DNA of 64,000 nt, from NCBI RefSeq assembly GCF_038002605.1, contig NZ_JBBOCT010000001.1, forward strand, positions 1,922,001 through 1,986,000, written 5' to 3'. This DNA is from Bacillus sp. FSL K6-3431. GTDB lineage: Bacteria; Bacillota; Bacilli; Bacillales; Bacillaceae_C. The stretch's first letter is position 1, and each line of letters opens with the position of its first letter. Positions 25,696 to 51,406 of this stretch are shown piece by piece. The position numbers and the translations under genes are program-made. The notes beneath the pieces were generated by a model. The model had not been told where the DNA came from and made no database searches. It saw only the letters and a list, made by a program, of their open reading frames with translations.

Positions 25696-26004
25696 GTTCA
25701 ATTGACCTTGGGAGTGCCTTTTTCGCAGTGAGCGGAAATCGGTAGATGTTCAATTTACCTTAGTCCTGCTTTTTTCGCTAGGAGGGGCAATCGGGAGGCG
25801 TTCGATTTACCTTAGTCCTGCTTTTTTCGCTAGGAGGGGCAATCGGTAGACATTCGATTTACCTTGGTCCTGCTTTTTTCGCAGGGAGGGCAATCGGGAG
25901 ACGTTCGATTTACCTTAGTCCTGCTTTTTTGCAGGGAGGGGCAATCGAAGTGCGTCCAATGACCAGGTCGTGCCTTTTTCGTGATGAGGATAAAGAGGGG
26001 CTCC
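25696..26004. repeat. Tandem array of a 51-52 bp unit, six copies
   Basis: Units start near 25696, 25748, 25800, 25852, 25903 and 25954. Units 2-5 are almost identical; the outer two are diverged. Each contains GTTCGATTTACCTTAGTCCT or a variant, then CCTGCTTTTTTCGCAGG-like bases that can form a small hairpin, then AGGGGCAATCGG. The array is non-coding in all frames and fills the gap between lytH and the NhaC-type gene. Confidence 0.85.
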
Positions 26005-43933: not shown

Positions 43934-44020
43934 TTCCTCACCAACTCCCCTTTTTTTTCCCCTGCAAACAGGAGGCTTATCTACTATACAGTATACTTTA
44001 TTATTCGGCAGAGTTTTCAA

Positions 44021-44362
44021 TTTACCTTTGTCAAAACAACTAACATTTTTATTTACTTTGCATATTGTAAGTTAATACATATAGAGATACTATCCTTAGC
44101 ATTCAGAATGATTGTCCAGTTTTATAACATCAACTTATGCAATTCTTTAGTAGGATCTCTGCATAAAATAACTTTTTCTATAGTGTCATCAGAGTACACA
44201 GAATCCTGATTTTCTACAAATTCATACTTTATTTTAAGTCGCGACTTCAAAGCCCCTTATGTCAGAAAGGTGATTTGATATCCCTTTTGAATAGCCCTTT
44301 AGATACTATCACGATGTCATGATAATATTCAATCAAGGTCTCTCAGTCGGAAATCCCATCAC
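44021..44362. other. Eroded interval between yusI and the oppF-like remnant
   Basis: No intact gene. On the minus strand, 44122-44260 has an open, protein-like stretch (LKSRLKIKYEFVENQDSVYS, then VILCRDPTKELHKLML and a stop) without a convincing start. It may be the decayed end of a further ABC-transporter or unrelated gene. Confidence 0.35.
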
Positions 44363-44575
44363 CTATTTTCTATTTTCAAGTAATTGTACATGTGGGGACC
44401 TTGTACGAGACATACAGACGAATAGTGAATGAAATGGTCTAGGCACTTCACCTTTTAGAATAATCTGTTCACTCTTTTCTGTTACTGTATCAGTATCAGG
44501 AGTAGCCAATAATAATGCTTGATTATATGGATGAAGAGGATTTGTGTACACATTATTACTCCCGCCAAATTCCAC
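44363..44575 (-). pseudogene. Fragment of an oligopeptide ABC transporter ATPase (OppF/DppF C-terminus)
   Basis: The 70-codon stretch reads EFGGSNNVYTNPLHPYNQAL, then ILKGEVPRPFHS and a scrambled Cys-containing end. This matches the conserved region after the ATPase domain of Opp/Dpp ATP-binding subunits (VYxNPxHPYTQALL; ILxGxVPSP). The Walker and signature motifs are absent and nothing upstream restores them. It is a remnant of a lost transporter operon at the left edge of the coat locus. Confidence 0.7.
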
Positions 44576-44718
44576 TAGATTACCAAGTCTCTAAAGTAAG
44601 CTGAGGTAGGTATCAAAGTTTGTCAAATAATATATCGGCAATATAATAGGCTTAAAATATTAGGAAGTTTTCACCTTCTCTTAGTTTCGACTAATAAATA
44701 GATTGGTTTTATAGGGAG

Positions 44719-45396
44719 TTACACCTGGTGTAGCGTTTTAATGTGATGAAGATTTAGATAAACGGGATGTGTTCTTGCTGTTTGAATCTCTATGATTTGT
44801 TCTTCGACATTATTTATTTTTCCTATATGGTTATTATTTTCACCGATGTTAAACACAACGACTTCATTTTCGAACTTTTTAACTTGAACTTCAAAAGTTC
44901 TTGCTAGTGAAACATTAGTCGGTTGAATAGGAAAATTACGGTTATCTAGATCGTATGGCCGTTGATTGTTAGAATAAGGAATCAGCCACTTTAGATGATG
45001 TAACGTAATATACATGGTTTTATAAATAGGAGAATGAAATACAAAATAATTGTTCATGATGCTCGTAATATACCCATGTAAAGGCTGATTGCTTGTTACA
45101 TAAATTTCAACAAACATTCCTTTAGACTGTGTTAGAACCTTTCTTAAAGACAATTCATCTTTATTTTCCTCCGAAACTATGCTAGGAGATTCTGTAGGAC
45201 TTTTTATCTCGTCTTCATTTTTTTGATCCACCCTTAAATTTTGAATATGGACTAAGGGAATGTAGACAAAATCCGTTCCGTTAAATAAAACAATGATGTC
45301 ATTACCTATATCAACGATTGTCCCATTAATAAACTTCTTTCCGGAGACTTCTATTTGAACAACTTCCCTTATAAGGTTTTGAATAATTTTATTCAA
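44719..45396 (-). CDS. CotB-type coat-associated protein (DUF2642-like domains)
   Basis: Protein of 225 residues. At least two Sm-like beta barrels of the kind found in the N-terminal part of CotB and in DUF2642/YuzF proteins: VVQIEVSGKKFINGTIVDIG near residues 14-33 and MFVEIYVTSNQPLHGYITSI near 95-114, each ending in a Tyr/Leu-His-His-Leu-Lys strand. TTG 45396 with AGGAGGGG upstream is the likely start. It begins 16 bases after the ArsB-type transporter gene and shares its operon. A spore-surface role is inferred from the domain and the neighbouring cotB and cotH genes. Confidence 0.7.
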   Translation of the reverse strand: MNKIIQNLIREVVQIEVSGKKFINGTIVDIGNDIIVLFNGTDFVYIPLVHIQNLRVDQKNEDEIKSPTESPSIVSEENKDELSLRKVLTQSKGMFVEIYVTSNQPLHGYITSIMNNYFVFHSPIYKTMYITLHHLKWLIPYSNNQRPYDLDNRNFPIQPTNVSLARTFEVQVKKFENEVVVFNIGENNNHIGKINNVEEQIIEIQTARTHPVYLNLHHIKTLHQV

Positions 45397-45411
45397 GTTC
45401 ACCCCTCCTTT

Positions 45412-46767
45412 TTAATAAAATAGCCACATTACCCAAAAATATAGACTGAACAAACTAACGATTAAACCTATTGGGATAACAAGTATTGTTACTTTTAGGT
45501 ACTGACTCCAAGTTACTTTAATTGCATGCTTTTTAAGAATAAACATCCATATTAGTGTCGCGAGTGTTCCTACCGGTGTTAATAAAGCCCCAATATCGGC
45601 TCCAATGACATTTGCCAGGTATGTGATATGCACAAATGATGGTTCTAAATCCATGTCCACAATTGACAAAGTACTAATCATAACGGCTGGTAGATTATTG
45701 AAAGTATTGGATAAGAATGTTGATAAGACTCCCATCACGAATGTAGCATTTAATGGATCTTGTTCTACTATTTCTTTTAGTAAACGAACAATAAAATCAT
45801 TTATACCGATATTCTTAAGTCCGTACACGAGAACATACATGTTAAATGCAAACAATAAGATATGCCACGGAGTCTTTTTCAAAATATCAGTAATGCCAGT
45901 TCTCATTTTAAGCCATCTAAAAACAATTAAAATAAAGGCACCTAATAAACCAATCCACTCGATTGAAATTCCTAATGGAGATAGGGCAAAAAAACAAGCT
46001 CTTGTAGCTACTACAATACTCAGACTGATTTTAAACATACTCCAATCAATATTTTCAATATCGCTTCGGATTTCAAGAGGATGGGAGTACATATATTTAG
46101 AGTTGTCATTTTTCAATCTTAGTTGAATCGGTGAAATTTTTTTGGGAATATTCTTTTTAAAATATAAAAACATTAGTAGGAAAATTGATAAAATCCCTAT
46201 CATCGAGGGAATAAACATCATATTTATATAACTGTTTAAACTTAATCCGACTATTTCTAACGCAATGAGATTGGAAATGTTACTGACAGCGATCGGAGCG
46301 CTTGCTGCAGTTGCAATTAATGCACCAGATATTAAGTAAGGAAATATTTGATGAGGCTTGAATCGCAAGATCGTGACCATATGAATGATGATGGGGGTTG
46401 TGATAAGAATACTACCGTCATTATTAAATAACATCGTCATAAAAAAGCAAAGGAGATTCGTATAAAGATAGAGTCTTACCCCGGATCCTCTTGATCTGTT
46501 AACAATATTTATAGCGACCCACCTAAAGAATCCTATACTATCCAGTACAATTGTCATCATAATCGTTGATAATATAGTTAGTGAAGGTCCTCTTACAATC
46601 TCCAATATTCCTATAATATCTGTCCAGGAAACAATACCTGTAATTAAAACTATTGCAGCACCGATAGTCGTTGGGACTGTTTCGTTTATTCCATATGGCC
46701 TCCAAAGCATTAATAAAATCGTTAATGTAAAAACAATTAACATAATAGTAACAGAGGAATCAAGCAT
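45412..46767 (-). CDS. ArsB/NhaD-type transporter within the coat operon
   Basis: Membrane protein of 451 residues with about 11-12 hydrophobic segments. ArsB/NhaD (IT superfamily) features: LLCFFMTMLFNNDGSILITTP near 107 and LSTFLSNTFNNLPAVMISTL near 345, the paired re-entrant Asn-containing motifs, and IGADIGALLTPVGTLATLIW near 393. The family moves arsenite, sodium or dicarboxylates; arsenite is not implied because no arsR or arsC accompanies it. Its start overlaps the stop of a 46-residue membrane peptide gene, and it is cotranscribed with CotB-type genes on both sides. Confidence 0.8.
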   Translation of the reverse strand: MLDSSVTIMLIVFTLTILLMLWRPYGINETVPTTIGAAIVLITGIVSWTDIIGILEIVRGPSLTILSTIMMTIVLDSIGFFRWVAINIVNRSRGSGVRLYLYTNLLCFFMTMLFNNDGSILITTPIIIHMVTILRFKPHQIFPYLISGALIATAASAPIAVSNISNLIALEIVGLSLNSYINMMFIPSMIGILSIFLLMFLYFKKNIPKKISPIQLRLKNDNSKYMYSHPLEIRSDIENIDWSMFKISLSIVVATRACFFALSPLGISIEWIGLLGAFILIVFRWLKMRTGITDILKKTPWHILLFAFNMYVLVYGLKNIGINDFIVRLLKEIVEQDPLNATFVMGVLSTFLSNTFNNLPAVMISTLSIVDMDLEPSFVHITYLANVIGADIGALLTPVGTLATLIWMFILKKHAIKVTWSQYLKVTILVIPIGLIVSLFSLYFWVMWLFY

Positions 46768-46900
46768 GGAAATCCGCCGCCTTTTGTTTAGAAATAACAG
46801 GTTTTGCTGATTTGATTACGTTTTCCTGCTTATATGGTGATTTTAAAAATAGTTTATAAAATAATCCTCCAATTATGGAAAAATAAAGGATCATAATCAT
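46760..46900 (-). CDS. Single-span membrane peptide, 46 residues
   Basis: ATG 46900 follows AAAGGAGGGGG, one of the strongest ribosome sites in the window. The product begins MIMILYFSIIGGLFYKLFLK, a single membrane span, followed by a basic tail ending KQKAADFHA. Its stop overlaps the transporter start by eight bases, so translation is coupled. It begins 23 bases after the upstream cotB-like gene. A small subunit or assembly factor of the transporter is the simplest inference; no homolog is recognised. Confidence 0.7.
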   Translation of the reverse strand: MIMILYFSIIGGLFYKLFLKSPYKQENVIKSAKPVISKQKAADFHA

Positions 46901-46923
46901 GTTTTCCCCCTCCTTTCTTATTA

Positions 46924-48156
46924 TTATTTCCCGAATCGTTCTTGTTTCAATTGATGATACATTTTTTCAGCATGCTTCATTAAAGCATAGTATTGATTCT
47001 CTAACATTACTTTTTCTTCTTGTGGACTCATTTTTTTTATAGGATTATGAGTGGCTTTTACATTAGCAGCTTCCGATTTCCCTTCTACATTCCTCCTAGT
47101 CAATTTAAAATTTTTACTATGATTGCACCTCGGACTAGCAGTCGTCTTAGATAATTCAGAATACCCTTCTTTTTTTAAAGATTTTATGACATTAGCAGGT
47201 AATCCTAAATCCTCAACAGAATGGTTTTGGGATGTAAATGCTTGCTGATCATTACATTTGGGATTTACCCTAGTTCGATGTTTTCTATTTTCTCTCTTAT
47301 TATATTGAGGTTCGATAAAGATATATTGCTCCTCGTTCATAGCGCTATATTGATTAGATTCTAATACATCCTGGCAACCTTCATCGTGAGAAAATTCTTC
47401 ATCCCTTTTTAATACATTATGTTTTTCCGATTGCTGAAAAATAGATTCTCCAATAAATTCAATTTTTGAGATGACATTTCGATCACCATTATTAAAAGAT
47501 TCAACATCCGTTTCCTCGCTATCATTACTTAGCTTAGAAGGAACTTGATCATCTTTTTCCAATTCATTTTCGTTTGTTATTTGTATGTTTTTTTCTACAT
47601 CTTGATTCACTTGATGAGTATCCCTTGCTTCTTCATTCTCAGAAGAGTCCAGCTGTTCTTTAGACTCATCATTTGTATCAGAAAGAGAATCTTGCACAGC
47701 TTTTTCTTGACTGGTGTCTCCTTGTCGATCTTCAATTTCATATATCCCTTTACATATGTTTGAAATATAGGATTTTTGAATATATAGTTTTTCGTCATTA
47801 TTTATTAAGATGATGTGATCTTCGGATATTCTGCTTAGCAACCCCACTAGCGTCTGATTATTAAGACTATTGATAGTGACCCAGCTGTACCTTAAAGCAC
47901 TCAATATGTCTGTTAAGTGATTTCTATCTAGATGAGGAACAATGTTGGACGATGCGCGAAAATCTTTAGCATTCTTTGACAGTGCGTAAATCTGTTGAAG
48001 TGCAAAATAAAAAACGTTGTGATCCACCTCAACTATTAGGTGGTCTTGTTTAACATCCAGCAAAAGTCCTTCTACAAATTGGTCGTTATTAAGAAAGATT
48101 CCAACTTTGAACCCTATAAGGATGCTGAGTACATCAACAAGATTTTCCTTTTCCAA
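46924..48156 (-). CDS. CotB-like spore coat protein, long form
   Basis: Protein of 410 residues. The N-terminal 130 residues hold two CotB-type barrels (LIGFKVGIFLNNDQFVEGLL near 12; WVTINSLNNQTLVGLLSRIS near 88). Residues 150-290 are acidic and disordered, rich in Glu, Asp, Ser and Asn. The C-terminal 120 residues turn basic, with many Lys, Arg, Ser and Asn, as in the CotB tail. TTG 48156 with GGGGAGG upstream fits better than the TTG at 48198. Structural component of the outer coat; in B. subtilis CotB is phosphorylated by CotH on Ser residues of its C-terminus. Confidence 0.75.
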   Translation of the reverse strand: MEKENLVDVLSILIGFKVGIFLNNDQFVEGLLLDVKQDHLIVEVDHNVFYFALQQIYALSKNAKDFRASSNIVPHLDRNHLTDILSALRYSWVTINSLNNQTLVGLLSRISEDHIILINNDEKLYIQKSYISNICKGIYEIEDRQGDTSQEKAVQDSLSDTNDESKEQLDSSENEEARDTHQVNQDVEKNIQITNENELEKDDQVPSKLSNDSEETDVESFNNGDRNVISKIEFIGESIFQQSEKHNVLKRDEEFSHDEGCQDVLESNQYSAMNEEQYIFIEPQYNKRENRKHRTRVNPKCNDQQAFTSQNHSVEDLGLPANVIKSLKKEGYSELSKTTASPRCNHSKNFKLTRRNVEGKSEAANVKATHNPIKKMSPQEEKVMLENQYYALMKHAEKMYHQLKQERFGK

Positions 48157-48224
48157 TTTAGAGTTCCTCCCCTCTAAATAATTTGTCGCAACTAACAAAT
48201 AGCAGCGACAAATTTAAGAAGCCA

Positions 48225-48779
48225 CTATTGATTTTGTATTGTTATATCTTTTTGGTATTTATTTGTGTTTTCTTTATTACTTTCCTCAGACTTATTTGCT
48301 GTTTTCTCATCATCATTTGATGATTTATTTTCTGATTTATCAGCCTCTTGTTTTTCAACTTTAACTCCATAGCTTATGTTACGGACATGAAACATTGAAA
48401 GACGGACTATTTCTTCATTCGAGACAACTACCATAAAATCATCATTAACATCGTCCAGTACACCCTCTAGCGATTCTGGTCCACCACGGTTAACTTTTAT
48501 CCAGTGATATTTTAAGCTATCACAAACACTTTTAAAATCTTGAGCTCTTACGAACTCAAAGTCCTCAGGAATTTCAAGTTCAAATTTCAATCCTTGTTTC
48601 GCATTATCAGATAGGCTCTTAATATGCTGTGTATTATAATAAATAACTCCTTCATCTTCGGTTAGCACCGTAAGATGATCCTCTTCTGCTGCCAGAACTT
48701 TTCCAACACGAGACTCAGGTCCACCCCTATCGATTTTAATTACTTTATCTACTAATGAAAGCATTAATTCTTTATTCAT
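48225..48779 (-). CDS. cotB: CotB-like spore coat protein, short form
   Basis: Protein of 184 residues. Two CotB barrels each start with a near-identical motif: VIKIDRGGPESRVGKVLAAE near residue 13 and WIKVNRGGPESLEGVLDDVN near 92. The remaining 45 residues are polar, rich in Glu, Lys, Ser and Asn (SENKSSNDDEKTANKSEESN). This is the closest match to CotB in the window, though shorter than the B. subtilis protein because the Ser/Arg-rich tail is brief. ATG behind TGGAGG. It is followed by the long CotB form on the same strand. Confidence 0.8.
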   Translation of the reverse strand: MNKELMLSLVDKVIKIDRGGPESRVGKVLAAEEDHLTVLTEDEGVIYYNTQHIKSLSDNAKQGLKFELEIPEDFEFVRAQDFKSVCDSLKYHWIKVNRGGPESLEGVLDDVNDDFMVVVSNEEIVRLSMFHVRNISYGVKVEKQEADKSENKSSNDDEKTANKSEESNKENTNKYQKDITIQNQ

Positions 48780-48932
48780 CTTTTTTTAACCTCCATTCAT
48801 ATTTTCCTTATATCTATATGTGTCATGGGATGACAAAGTAACTTTCATACGCCTATTTTAGAGTACAAGGTTAAAAATGGGTTTACTTGTCGTCCCTTTT
48901 ATTGGAGGTAATTGAAATGCTAAATCTTTTAA

Positions 48933-50003
48933 CTACACTATCCGCGAAAGCTCATTAGTTAAATAATGATTGCGATTTCGAATAAATTCTAATATGAACT
49001 CAGGTTCTTTCTCGAATTCTTCAACTCTATACTTCATATAAGGATCTTTTATAATGTATGGATTTAATTCCCTATATGACAACTCGATGCAGGGACCTTG
49101 ATTTGCTGCTGTAAATTGATTTTGCAGTACACTTTCCATGATGTTTTTATACATGCTTCTATAATGAGGATACTTAAAAAGTCTAGCAGTTAGAGTATTG
49201 TAACCATCTATAGGAATGTAGTCATATTCCAATGGTGTTCCATGCCTATCTCTTCCCCATGTTCCGTCATAATCCCATGGAGTTATTTCATAAAGCTTTG
49301 TATTATCGTCTCTATACAAAGCATAATTGTGTACAAATCCATCGAAATTTTGCGTGCAAACGACACCAGCTAACCATAATAAATACTTTTCTATATTAAT
49401 AATCTTTGAAATTTCTTCGTAAAACTCCGCATCTGTTAACGTATTAACCTTAATCAGTAAGTTAAGCAAGGATGCCTTCCCTTCCTCATTACCATACTTT
49501 TCTGAATACCCTTGAGTTAGATCCGCTTTAACTTCATTTTCTGCTGTTAGCAATGAAAAATTGGCATCATTATCAGTAGCATAATATATGCTACCATCTG
49601 GCAGTTTTCTTTTGGTTAACAGATATTGATCAAAAGACTCTAATTGTAAATAGATCCCATTAAAGACCCCGTTAATATACAAAAGAATGTGTTGTGATTG
49701 AGGTGACAAGACTCCAATGTCGCTAAAAAAGTCTAATGAAAGTTTATTACGAATGAGGGAGGGATCATTAAATTCAGCGTTAAGATGAATTTCATGTGCT
49801 CCATTCATAAAAAAAGGTTTTTTAAAAAGGATATTATATGATTTTTTTTCATGGTTTCGAATGGAGTGCCCTCTGTAGGAAACATCGATTGCATATTTAT
49901 CACCGCCTATCCATAATGTGCCTGAAATATATTCATCACTCCAAATATCCTGCCTCAAAGTTTTAAAATCTTTTGGATTCATATAAATGTTATAACTTAA
50001 CAA
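48933..50003 (-). CDS. cotH: Spore coat protein kinase CotH
   Basis: Protein of 356 residues, about the size of B. subtilis CotH (362). Conserved blocks: KKSYNILFKKPFFMNGAHEI near 58, EFNDPSLIRNKLSLDFFSD near 77, GSIYYATDNDANFSLL near 141 and NYALYRDDNTKLYEITPWDY near 228, ending with the metal-binding DYDGTWGRD. CotH is an atypical protein kinase that phosphorylates CotB and CotG in the spore coat and directs assembly of the inner part of the outer coat. TTG 50003 follows AAAAGGAGAG at good spacing. It is divergent from the Gly-Ser-Lys repeat gene, the position cotG has in B. subtilis. Confidence 0.92.
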   Translation of the reverse strand: MLSYNIYMNPKDFKTLRQDIWSDEYISGTLWIGGDKYAIDVSYRGHSIRNHEKKSYNILFKKPFFMNGAHEIHLNAEFNDPSLIRNKLSLDFFSDIGVLSPQSQHILLYINGVFNGIYLQLESFDQYLLTKRKLPDGSIYYATDNDANFSLLTAENEVKADLTQGYSEKYGNEEGKASLLNLLIKVNTLTDAEFYEEISKIINIEKYLLWLAGVVCTQNFDGFVHNYALYRDDNTKLYEITPWDYDGTWGRDRHGTPLEYDYIPIDGYNTLTARLFKYPHYRSMYKNIMESVLQNQFTAANQGPCIELSYRELNPYIIKDPYMKYRVEEFEKEPEFILEFIRNRNHYLTNELSRIV

Positions 50004-50040
50004 GATAGTACTCTCCTTTTATATACATTTATCCTTGTTA

Positions 50041-50068
50041 AATTTTATGCTTCTTCCTTATATACAGT
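50041..50068 (-). promoter_or_regulatory. Possible sigma-K promoter for cotH
   Basis: Minus strand: AC at 50068-50067, 17 bases, then CATAAAATT (50049-50041), one base from the sigma-K -10 consensus CATANNNTA. Late mother-cell expression would fit a coat kinase. Confidence 0.35.
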
Positions 50069-50182
50069 GACAGTATGACGTAAACATGTATTTTTCCAGA
50101 AATACAATAAAGTCTAAACAGATCAACACCATATCTCATATTCTGAATAGTGACATAAAAAAATAAGAAAGTGGTGAAGGTT

Positions 50183-51172
50183 TTGGCTGAGACTATGACT
50201 ATTGATATTAATAAACTTTTCCTAATTGCTACAGAAAAAGGGCTATCAGGATATATGCATAATAATCCAGTAGAATACGATGAAGCACCTAGAGTTTATG
50301 CAAAGAAGAAAGGGCCTGGAAAGAAAGGATCTGGCGGGAATAAAGGATCTGGTGGAAAGAAAGGATCTGACGGGAATAAAGGATCTGGCGGGAATAAAGG
50401 ATCTGGTGGAAAGAAAGGATCTGGCGGGAATAAAGGATCTGGTGGAAAGAAAGGATCTGGTGGAAAGAAAGGATCTGGCGGGAATAAAGGATCTGGCGGA
50501 AAGAAAGGATCTGGCGGGAATAAAGGATCTGGTGGAAAGAGAGGATCTGGCGGGAATAAAGGATCTGGTGGAAAGAAAGGATCTGGCGGGAATAAAGGAT
50601 CTGGTGGAAAGAAAGGATCTGGCGGGAATAAAGGATCTGGTGGAAAGAAAGGATCTGGCGGGAATAAAGGATCTGGTGGAAAGAAAGGATCTGGCGGGAA
50701 TAAAGGATCTGGCGGGAATAAAGGATCTGGTGGAAAGAAAGGATCTGGCGGAAATAAAGGATCTGGTGGAAAGAAAGGATCTGGCGGGAATAAAGGATCT
50801 GGTGGAAAGAAAGGATCTGGTGGAAAGAAAGGATCTGGCGGGAATAAAGGATCTGGTGGAAAGAAAGGATCTGGCGGGAATAAAGGATCTGGTGGAAAGA
50901 AAGGATCTGGTGGAAAGAAAGGATCTGGTGGAAAGAAAGGATCTGGTGGAAAGAAAGGATCTGGTGGAAAGAAAGGATCTGGTGGAAAGAAAGGATCTGG
51001 TGGAAAGAAAGGATCTGGTGGAAAGAAAGGATCTGGTGGAAAGAAAGGATCTGGTGGAAAGAAAGGATCTGGTGGAAAGAAAGGATCTGGTGGAAAGAAA
51101 GGATCTGGTGGAAAGAAAGGATCTGGTGGAAAGAAAGGATCTGGCGGGAATAAAGGGCATAGGAAAAAATAG
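50183..51172 (+). CDS. CotG-like protein made of 46 hexapeptide repeats
   Basis: Protein of about 329 residues. A 48-residue unique N-terminus (DINKLFLIATEKGLSGYMHN; VEYDEAPRVYAKKKGPGKK) is followed by 46 perfect or near-perfect copies of GSGG(K/N)K and a short end GHRKK. Every repeat supplies one Ser and one or two Lys, making a long, flexible, strongly basic chain with regularly spaced Ser. In B. subtilis, CotG is a repetitive Ser/Lys-rich protein encoded divergently from cotH and phosphorylated by it. Location and composition suggest this gene is the CotG equivalent; there is no sequence homology to the CotG repeat itself. Start is uncertain: TTG 50183 or GTG 50171, behind GGTGAAGG-like bases. 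Confidence 0.8.
   Translation: MAETMTIDINKLFLIATEKGLSGYMHNNPVEYDEAPRVYAKKKGPGKKGSGGNKGSGGKKGSDGNKGSGGNKGSGGKKGSGGNKGSGGKKGSGGKKGSGGNKGSGGKKGSGGNKGSGGKRGSGGNKGSGGKKGSGGNKGSGGKKGSGGNKGSGGKKGSGGNKGSGGKKGSGGNKGSGGNKGSGGKKGSGGNKGSGGKKGSGGNKGSGGKKGSGGKKGSGGNKGSGGKKGSGGNKGSGGKKGSGGKKGSGGKKGSGGKKGSGGKKGSGGKKGSGGKKGSGGKKGSGGKKGSGGKKGSGGKKGSGGKKGSGGKKGSGGKKGSGGNKGHRKK
50327..51154 (+). repeat. Coding tandem array, 46 units of 18 bp
   Basis: Two main unit types: GGATCTGGTGGAAAGAAA (KK) and GGATCTGGCGGGAATAAA (NK). The 5' two thirds largely alternate the two; units 32-45 are all KK type. Single variants: Asp in unit 3 and Arg in unit 12. Read length and slippage make the copy number the least certain part of this sequence. 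Confidence 0.95.
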
Positions 51173-51305
51173 GGTAGAGTTAATAAGTTACTACCATTAT
51201 AAATAATAATTGAAACGCGAAATATTCTTCATTAACATCTCGAATGACCTATAATGACGCCTGTTGTTCAATAAATTTGTTTCGAATACGCTTACCGTAT
51301 GCAAC

Positions 51306-51340
51306 AAAATAGGATGTTCATGGTGAACATCCTATTTTTC
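51306..51340. terminator. Terminator after the CotG-like gene
   Basis: Arms AAATAGGATGTTCA/TGAACATCCTATTTT around TGG, then TTCTTTTTTT. About 135 bases past the stop codon. Confidence 0.8.
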
Positions 51341-51352
51341 TTTTTTTAAACA

Positions 51353-51398
51353 ACAAAAAAGCCGACCACTCTAAACTAAACTAGTAGTCGGCTTTTAT
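51353..51398 (-). terminator. Terminator of the fadN-fadA-fadE operon
   Basis: Minus strand: arms AAAAGCCGACTACTAG and CTAGAGTGGTCGGCTTTT-like (GCCGAC/GTCGGC core), followed by T-run. 10 bases past the fadE stop. Confidence 0.8.
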
Positions 51399-51406
51399 TA
51401 AATTGC

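Follow-up and report, generated by a model that had tools for sequence, protein, structure and literature searches.

A probable CotG-type protein with a glycine-serine-lysine hexamer array, encoded divergently from cotH in Bacillus sp. FSL K6-3431

The rapidly changing repeat gene divergent from cotH in Bacillus sp. FSL K6-3431 probably encodes a CotG-type phosphoprotein of the spore surface, in which a short head related to that of CotG is followed by 46 basic, serine-bearing hexamers. We do not rate this reading higher because the direct match of the head to B. subtilis-type heads is weak. The original prediction, made from the 64,000-nucleotide stretch of DNA analysed here (hereafter the window), took the gene for a non-homologous replacement of CotG. 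From the sequence comparisons below, the product appears not to be wholly non-homologous to CotG, and would be a relative rather than an unrelated substitute. The features discussed are as follows (positions in the window).

43943 to 51399: block of about 7.46 kb that the close relative G006 lacks at this site (alignment L239)
44719 to 45402, minus strand: 227-aa gene of the conserved cluster, with a match in 86 of 159 other loci
45412 to 46767, minus strand: ArsB-like transporter gene, with a match in 55 of 159 other loci
46924 to 48198, minus strand: second CotB-like gene, 424 aa (DUF2642, E 9.9e-8), with a match in 60 of 159 other loci
48225 to 48779, minus strand: CotB-like gene, 184 aa, with a tblastn match in 92 of 159 other loci (L057, E 8e-27)
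48933 to 50003, minus strand: cotH, encoding a CotH-family kinase (Pfam PF08757, PDB) in which the motifs NFDGFVHNY and WDYDGTWGRD are kept
50042 to 50068, minus strand: sigma-K-like match in the cotH direction, AC-N17-CATAAAAT
50118 to 50144, plus strand: sigma-K-like match in the cotG direction, AC-N17-CATATTCT
50195 to 51172, plus strand: CotG-type repeat gene, 325 aa from ATG, identified by its head profile match
50195 to 50284, plus strand: conserved head MTIDINKLFLIATEKGLSGYMHNNPVEYDE, NNP type of CotG head, from profile matches
50327 to 51154, plus strand: 46 tandem hexamers GS(G/D)G(K/N)(K/R), uninterrupted, in 18-bp DNA units, with Gly at every third residue

The cotH locus of the window

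As predicted, cotH is recognisable by homology: its product covers the full PF08757 profile (E 3.9e-80) and matches a solved relative, 'Spore coat protein H' (5jd9/5jda), at E 3.3e-120. It is the sole CotH-family match in its own 5.5-Mb genome (E up to 0.001). Residues D221 and D244 are presumably the catalytic aspartates known from B. subtilis CotH.

The cotG-type gene starts 191 bases from cotH. An alternative GTG start at 50171 gives an open frame of 333 aa on the plus strand; the ATG at 50195 agrees with the starts in several relatives (MRIDVEQLL..., MKIDVEQLL...). In the product, some 30 residues of head and a short basic linker precede the hexamers, which are followed by a basic end; it contains 47 serines in 325 residues. 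The predicted number of 46 hexamers proved exact (28 GSGGKK, 16 GSGGNK, one GSDGNK and one GSGGKR). The repeat is also, as had been stated, basic, Ser-bearing and unlike that of B. subtilis CotG: the net charge of the protein is +80, the repeat GSGG(K/N)K being found and the HKKS type absent. A C-terminal tail of the YWKDGN type, sought with a loose pattern, is likewise absent, the protein ending in GNKGHRKK.

At the DNA level, the array has a TRF score of 1309 to 1407 and hence is not a product of chance; its 18-bp units fall into 6 distinct types, and since 27 of the 46 are identical, it is homogeneous. Two other long open frames cross it, of 308 aa (plus strand) and 304 aa (minus strand), and look like by-products of the repeat, the reading frame of the cotG-type gene being picked by the putative homology of the head. 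A chance open frame over the array was considered and rejected because the head is conserved. Elsewhere in the window, a 52-bp unit is repeated 4.5 times in tandem (25715 to 25947). In public assemblies, contigs end within the open cotG-type frame at several loci (L121, L125, L126, L128, L130, L131, L133, L136, L139 and L142), as if the assemblies broke in the cotG-type repeat.

Both CotB-like genes, on which the original prediction was silent, lie downstream of cotH. We use the name CotB because of the position of these genes and their homology to the cotH neighbour of B. subtilis-type loci, and not from annotation. Two B. subtilis-type loci (L057 and L183) have good-score matches to three of the four neighbour genes. 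As relatives of these neighbours occur near cotH elsewhere, the window gene stands in the cotG position in its full context, divergent from cotH and with CotB-like neighbours, which agrees with the position first assigned to it. The ArsB-like gene, where it occurs near cotH, may be found on either side of the cluster.

Head types and CotH lineages

With the window CotH as query, matches were obtained in 2 of 16 genomes of the genus (its own and one distant match, E 7e-13); at the level of the family the count is 10 of 34, and at that of the order 100 of 397. One set of loci was taken around the strong matches. A contig search with the single CotH gave no relative, and alignment A1 supplied a second set of 80 named loci, these being the best of 281. 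Including the window, 160 cotH loci were examined, some genomes occurring in both sets. A head was found at E<0.01 in divergent position in 117 of them, and comes in two types: the classic head, with consensus YxxxDIQxAVxxxxxxGLxxFMxQxP, and the NNP head, with consensus DxxxLLxxAxENGVxxFxxNNPxE.

The 43 loci without a head comprise 37 on other CotH branches, 5 with weak classic heads (E 0.04-0.07) and L061; some of the 43 (L089, L098, L176) are cut by a contig end. A head-bearing gene lies elsewhere in the locus in L056 (E 5e-6) and, weakly, in L077 and L160, and is seen in L068 and L079 only by profile rounds blurred by repeats; eight loci of one family (L108, L112-L118) have no head-bearing gene in the locus. 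A CotG-type partner beside cotH is thus common but not universal. Two successive head-bearing CotG-type genes stand upstream of cotH in L053, L054, L157, L163 and L167, and L013/L188 has one additional head-bearing gene, on the other strand and farther off.

Head types follow the CotH tree, which was built by a quick method on 155 of the 160 rows (identical or short ones were dropped). The window CotH belongs to a clade of 47 rows (SH-aLRT 98) that includes Neobacillus, Viridibacillus, Ureibacillus, Rossellomorea and others, and 7 of the 8 other rows of its own family (two being one genome) fall in another CotH clade. NNP heads are present in 48 of the 49 loci of the window's clade, and classic heads in 65 of the 70 loci of the classic clade; 33 of the 48 NNP loci trained the NNP profile, and 15, including the window, did not. 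The nearest CotH, among the best 80 of 281 loci, is that of Paucisalibacillus globulus (58%), and the join of the two in the tree has a support of 92, below the starred level. The two clades differ at ten CotH columns, Gly247 within WDYDGTWGRD being one of them; at 4 of these 10 the window CotH departs from its own clade.

The window head (about 28 residues) matches a profile of NNP-type heads at 40.9 bits (E 1.6e-9 over 7,127 six-frame segments), whereas the best of 20,000 shuffles of this head reaches 13.3 bits; that profile has 33 rows from other organisms, the window and L151 being left out. When each training head and its near copies were dropped in turn, the worst case, L120, still gave E 0.008. 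A single-sequence query with the head in a large protein database yielded one candidate and none at E up to 1. Later iterations of the head profile grew into the repeats and were blurred by repeat matches, and are used only where stated.

A separate true CotG elsewhere in the genome, which would have told against the original prediction, was also looked for. When the whole of its own genome is searched with an NNP profile of 17 rows (A2), the window gene comes out at E 2.3e-9 and the next best match at E 1.05, so that there is no second NNP-type head below E 1 by a search that a headless CotG would escape. In 15 other genomes of the genus, the same profile gives E 0.04 or worse.

The relation to the classic head is more distant. 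With the window and its visible kin (L048, L049 and L061) kept out of it, a classic-head profile ranks the window gene best of the window's segments, but at E 0.23 (7,127 six-frame segments); on the window head itself this profile reaches 13.8 bits, whereas the best of 20,000 shuffles of that head gives 9.4. Over whole genomes of the genus, the classic profile A3 places the window gene first in its own genome at E 0.65, which is no better than chance, as matches in relatives without the cluster reach E 0.14. The two head profiles nevertheless align with each other with a probability of 95.6 and a score of 30.3, whereas the best of 100 column-shuffled decoys scores 10.9. We take the window head as homologous to the CotG head by way of its NNP-type kin, the direct match being weak; the link to B. 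subtilis CotG would rest on these intermediates, on position and on neighbours.

Beyond the head, CotG bodies were compared. Of the 129 loci in which a head was matched at E<5, 115 were used, bodies shorter than 40 aa or containing masked letters being dropped. Ser and Thr make up 11-67% of all 115, and charge per residue ranges from -0.06 to +0.54. A loose pattern finds a C-terminal CotG tail in 30 of 74 classic bodies and 0 of 41 NNP bodies; as tail patterns miss visible tails in L178, L185, L192, L193 and L199, such counts are lower bounds. Many classic CotGs end in a YWKDGNMW-like motif and the corresponding CotBs in VVKTIDYxWK-like motifs. By loose patterns, neither a CotG nor a CotB tail is present in any of the 38 NNP-clade loci having both genes, while among 36 classic loci 20 have both tails, 14 have one and 2 have neither. 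This joint absence may reflect contact between the CotG and CotB tails, or one evolutionary event. In the window's clade the tail of the CotB-like proteins is shorter and carries a slight negative charge; in the classic clade it is longer and Ser-richer, a difference that is not decisive.

Kinship of the repeat and alternative readings

The repeat had been predicted to be independent. In Paucisalibacillus globulus, however, the gene beside cotH has the same hexamer type (KKGSGGRKSSGGKRSSGG). A survey of cotH-divergent genes in related genomes, as had been proposed, found runs of at least 10 Gly-X-Y triplets, mostly Gly-Ser-(Lys/Arg), in 37 of 50 other NNP-head loci as against 1 of 66 classic-head loci, the triplets being counted on head-bearing frames only. 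The NNP loci have 2,032 such triplets, of which 84% carry Ser at X and 61% Lys or Arg at Y. Given the shared hexamer and the occurrence of these triplets across the clade, the window repeat is, as far as sequence comparison goes, not independent, and belongs to the Gly-Ser-basic type of its CotH clade. The proteins of Neobacillus, Viridibacillus, Ureibacillus, Rossellomorea and Paucisalibacillus resemble the window protein in their NNP head, CotH clade, Gly-Ser-basic repeats and lack of tail. Most of these relatives have (GSK/GSR)n repeats, in which almost all X positions are Ser, and a Pfam Collagen match, whereas the window protein alternates GSG and G(K/N)K and has no such match.

The window array keeps the triplet phase (GSG-G(K/N)K), with Gly in every third position through 94 successive Gly-X-Y triplets, and its repeat contains no proline. 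Of 10 NNP-type proteins tested, 8 exceed the Pfam Collagen cut-off (L173 lies just below, and L120 has no match). The window protein gives no Pfam Collagen match at E up to 1; an NCBIfam scan of it gives a weak match to the collagen-like adhesin SclB (26.8 bits, far under the cut-off of 325). We tentatively put forward a scenario that is possible though doubtful, in which one old docking head would be common to CotGs, and a distinct CotH lineage would have co-evolved with collagen-phase (Gly-Ser-Lys/Arg)n CotGs. This CotH would be a kinase of collagen-like serines, giving a phospho-collagen-like coat scaffold of which (GSGGKK)46 would be a proline-free variant. In the open-access literature, nothing was found in a title or the start of an abstract that joins CotG or CotH with collagen.

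How does the gene compare with systems already described? According to PMC7821199 and PMC9765600, CotH phosphorylates CotG and CotB, B. subtilis CotG being phosphorylated in its repeats; CotG touches CotB through its N and C termini, and its repeats serve as spacers. Citing Saggese 2016, the same papers state that in most species of Bacillus there is a CotG-like protein that agrees with CotG in chromosomal organisation, in having repeats and, as a rule, in its positive charge, so that repeat proteins of this kind at the cotG locus are a class already in print. The window gene resembles these modular proteins in being divergent from cotH and in having central tandem repeats, positive charge and a Ser per repeat; it differs in that the citing papers describe no homologous primary sequence, whereas we find a shared head and a Gly-Ser-basic repeat. 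Repeats of this class are described as randomly coiled, and the composition of the window repeat suggests that it may be disordered too. With B. subtilis CotG and its close kin (L057, L177, L183, L186, L196) it shares position, neighbours, CotH partner and, by profile-profile comparison, head family. It differs from B. subtilis CotG in having GSGG(K/N)K in place of an HKKS-type repeat and no YWKDGN-type tail, and its partner CotB-like protein is short and tailless, unlike the B. subtilis type. The collagen-like spore proteins of the BclA type (PMC9610443) also have long repeats with Gly every third residue; the window protein differs from them in giving no Pfam Collagen match, in having no repeat proline, and in its CotG-type head and cotH neighbour. 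For the leader and the C-terminal domain specific to BclA, this comparison extends to the Pfam and NCBIfam scans.

Three other explanations have to be weighed. An unrelated protein with an independently arisen repeat may have replaced CotG at the locus, as first proposed. This would account for the lack of resemblance to HKKS-type repeats and for the weak direct match to the classic head, both in the window (E 0.23) and genome-wide (E 0.65), and would accord with the statement of Saggese 2016, as cited in PMC9765600, that CotG-like proteins are not homologous to CotG. If the head is homologous, however, that statement then applies to the repeats. The NNP head match at E 1.6e-9, a match between NNP and classic profiles above all 100 decoys, the same hexamer type in Paucisalibacillus and the Gly-Ser-Lys/Arg triplets of 37 of 50 other NNP-head loci make the replacement improbable. 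Hence 'non-homologous' and 'independent' are the two terms of the original prediction that we would drop, the former with the reserve that the kinship is weak when tested directly; that a basic, Ser-bearing repeat protein acts here as CotG does remains likely.

We also consider it unlikely that the array forms a triple-helical, BclA-like fibre, with filaments on the spore surface and CotH incidental. The 94 successive triplets speak in favour of such a fibre, as do the Collagen matches of 8 of 10 related proteins and, far under its cut-off, the SclB match. Yet the window protein has neither a Pfam Collagen match (E up to 1) nor proline in its repeat, and combines a CotG-type head with a cotH neighbourhood. 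Moreover, Gly fills half of the Y positions of the array, and a triple helix of this composition is expected to be unstable. As for the long open frame being a by-product of the DNA repeat rather than a gene, the homogeneity of the array and its long frames on both strands would allow it; since the conserved head occurs in the cotG-type frame only, and gene position and head are kept across many genera, we hold this to be very improbable. A CotG-type protein with a CotG-related head thus remains our preferred reading.

History of the block and proposed role

The block missing from G006 carries the ArsB-like, 227-aa, two CotB-like, cotH and cotG-type genes. In the alignment with G006, window base 51400 is followed by base 43942, with 159 bases between. 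All 16 genomes of the genus have the fadE-type gene that adjoins the block (at 83-92% in the 15 others), and two further relatives have no match to the block beside their fad genes (L240, and L241, whose sequence ends there). GC content is 0.325-0.335 over 44-50 kb as against 0.342-0.426 around it, a modest difference. Given the absence from the single close relative that was aligned, and the CotH tree, lateral acquisition of the cotG/cotH-cotB block seems likelier than its loss in the others. As G015 has CotB-like, ArsB-like and 227-aa genes at another place, with no CotH match (L242), partial loss is also possible.

Putative promoters were sought in the intergenic regions with a sigma-K consensus. 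Of 160 regions, 84 have a match in one direction or the other, as against 13% of mononucleotide shuffles; only 27 of the 160 have one in the cotG direction.

In the mechanism that we propose, the mother cell would make CotH, the CotB-like proteins and the CotG-type protein from sigma-K promoters late in sporulation. The head would dock the CotG-type protein to the coat, and is the likely docking part because it is what stays conserved. The array would be the likely substrate of CotH, which we infer to phosphorylate the repeat serines, one per hexamer. By simple arithmetic, 47 phosphoserines would add about -94, taking the net charge from +80 to about -14, and this offset would allow a polycation that otherwise aggregates to assemble into a spacer or scaffold. 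Duplication at the DNA level would expand the repeat while the head stays.

The question would then shift from unrelated proteins taking the same job to one head keeping the job while its repeat is rewritten. The head offers a short candidate docking peptide common to CotG-type proteins, and the predicted kinase-substrate pair seems to move as a block. Finally, the HKKS, RRTS, GSK, GSS and GSGGKK repeats form a natural series in which to ask which property matters for the coat: serine spacing, charge or glycine.
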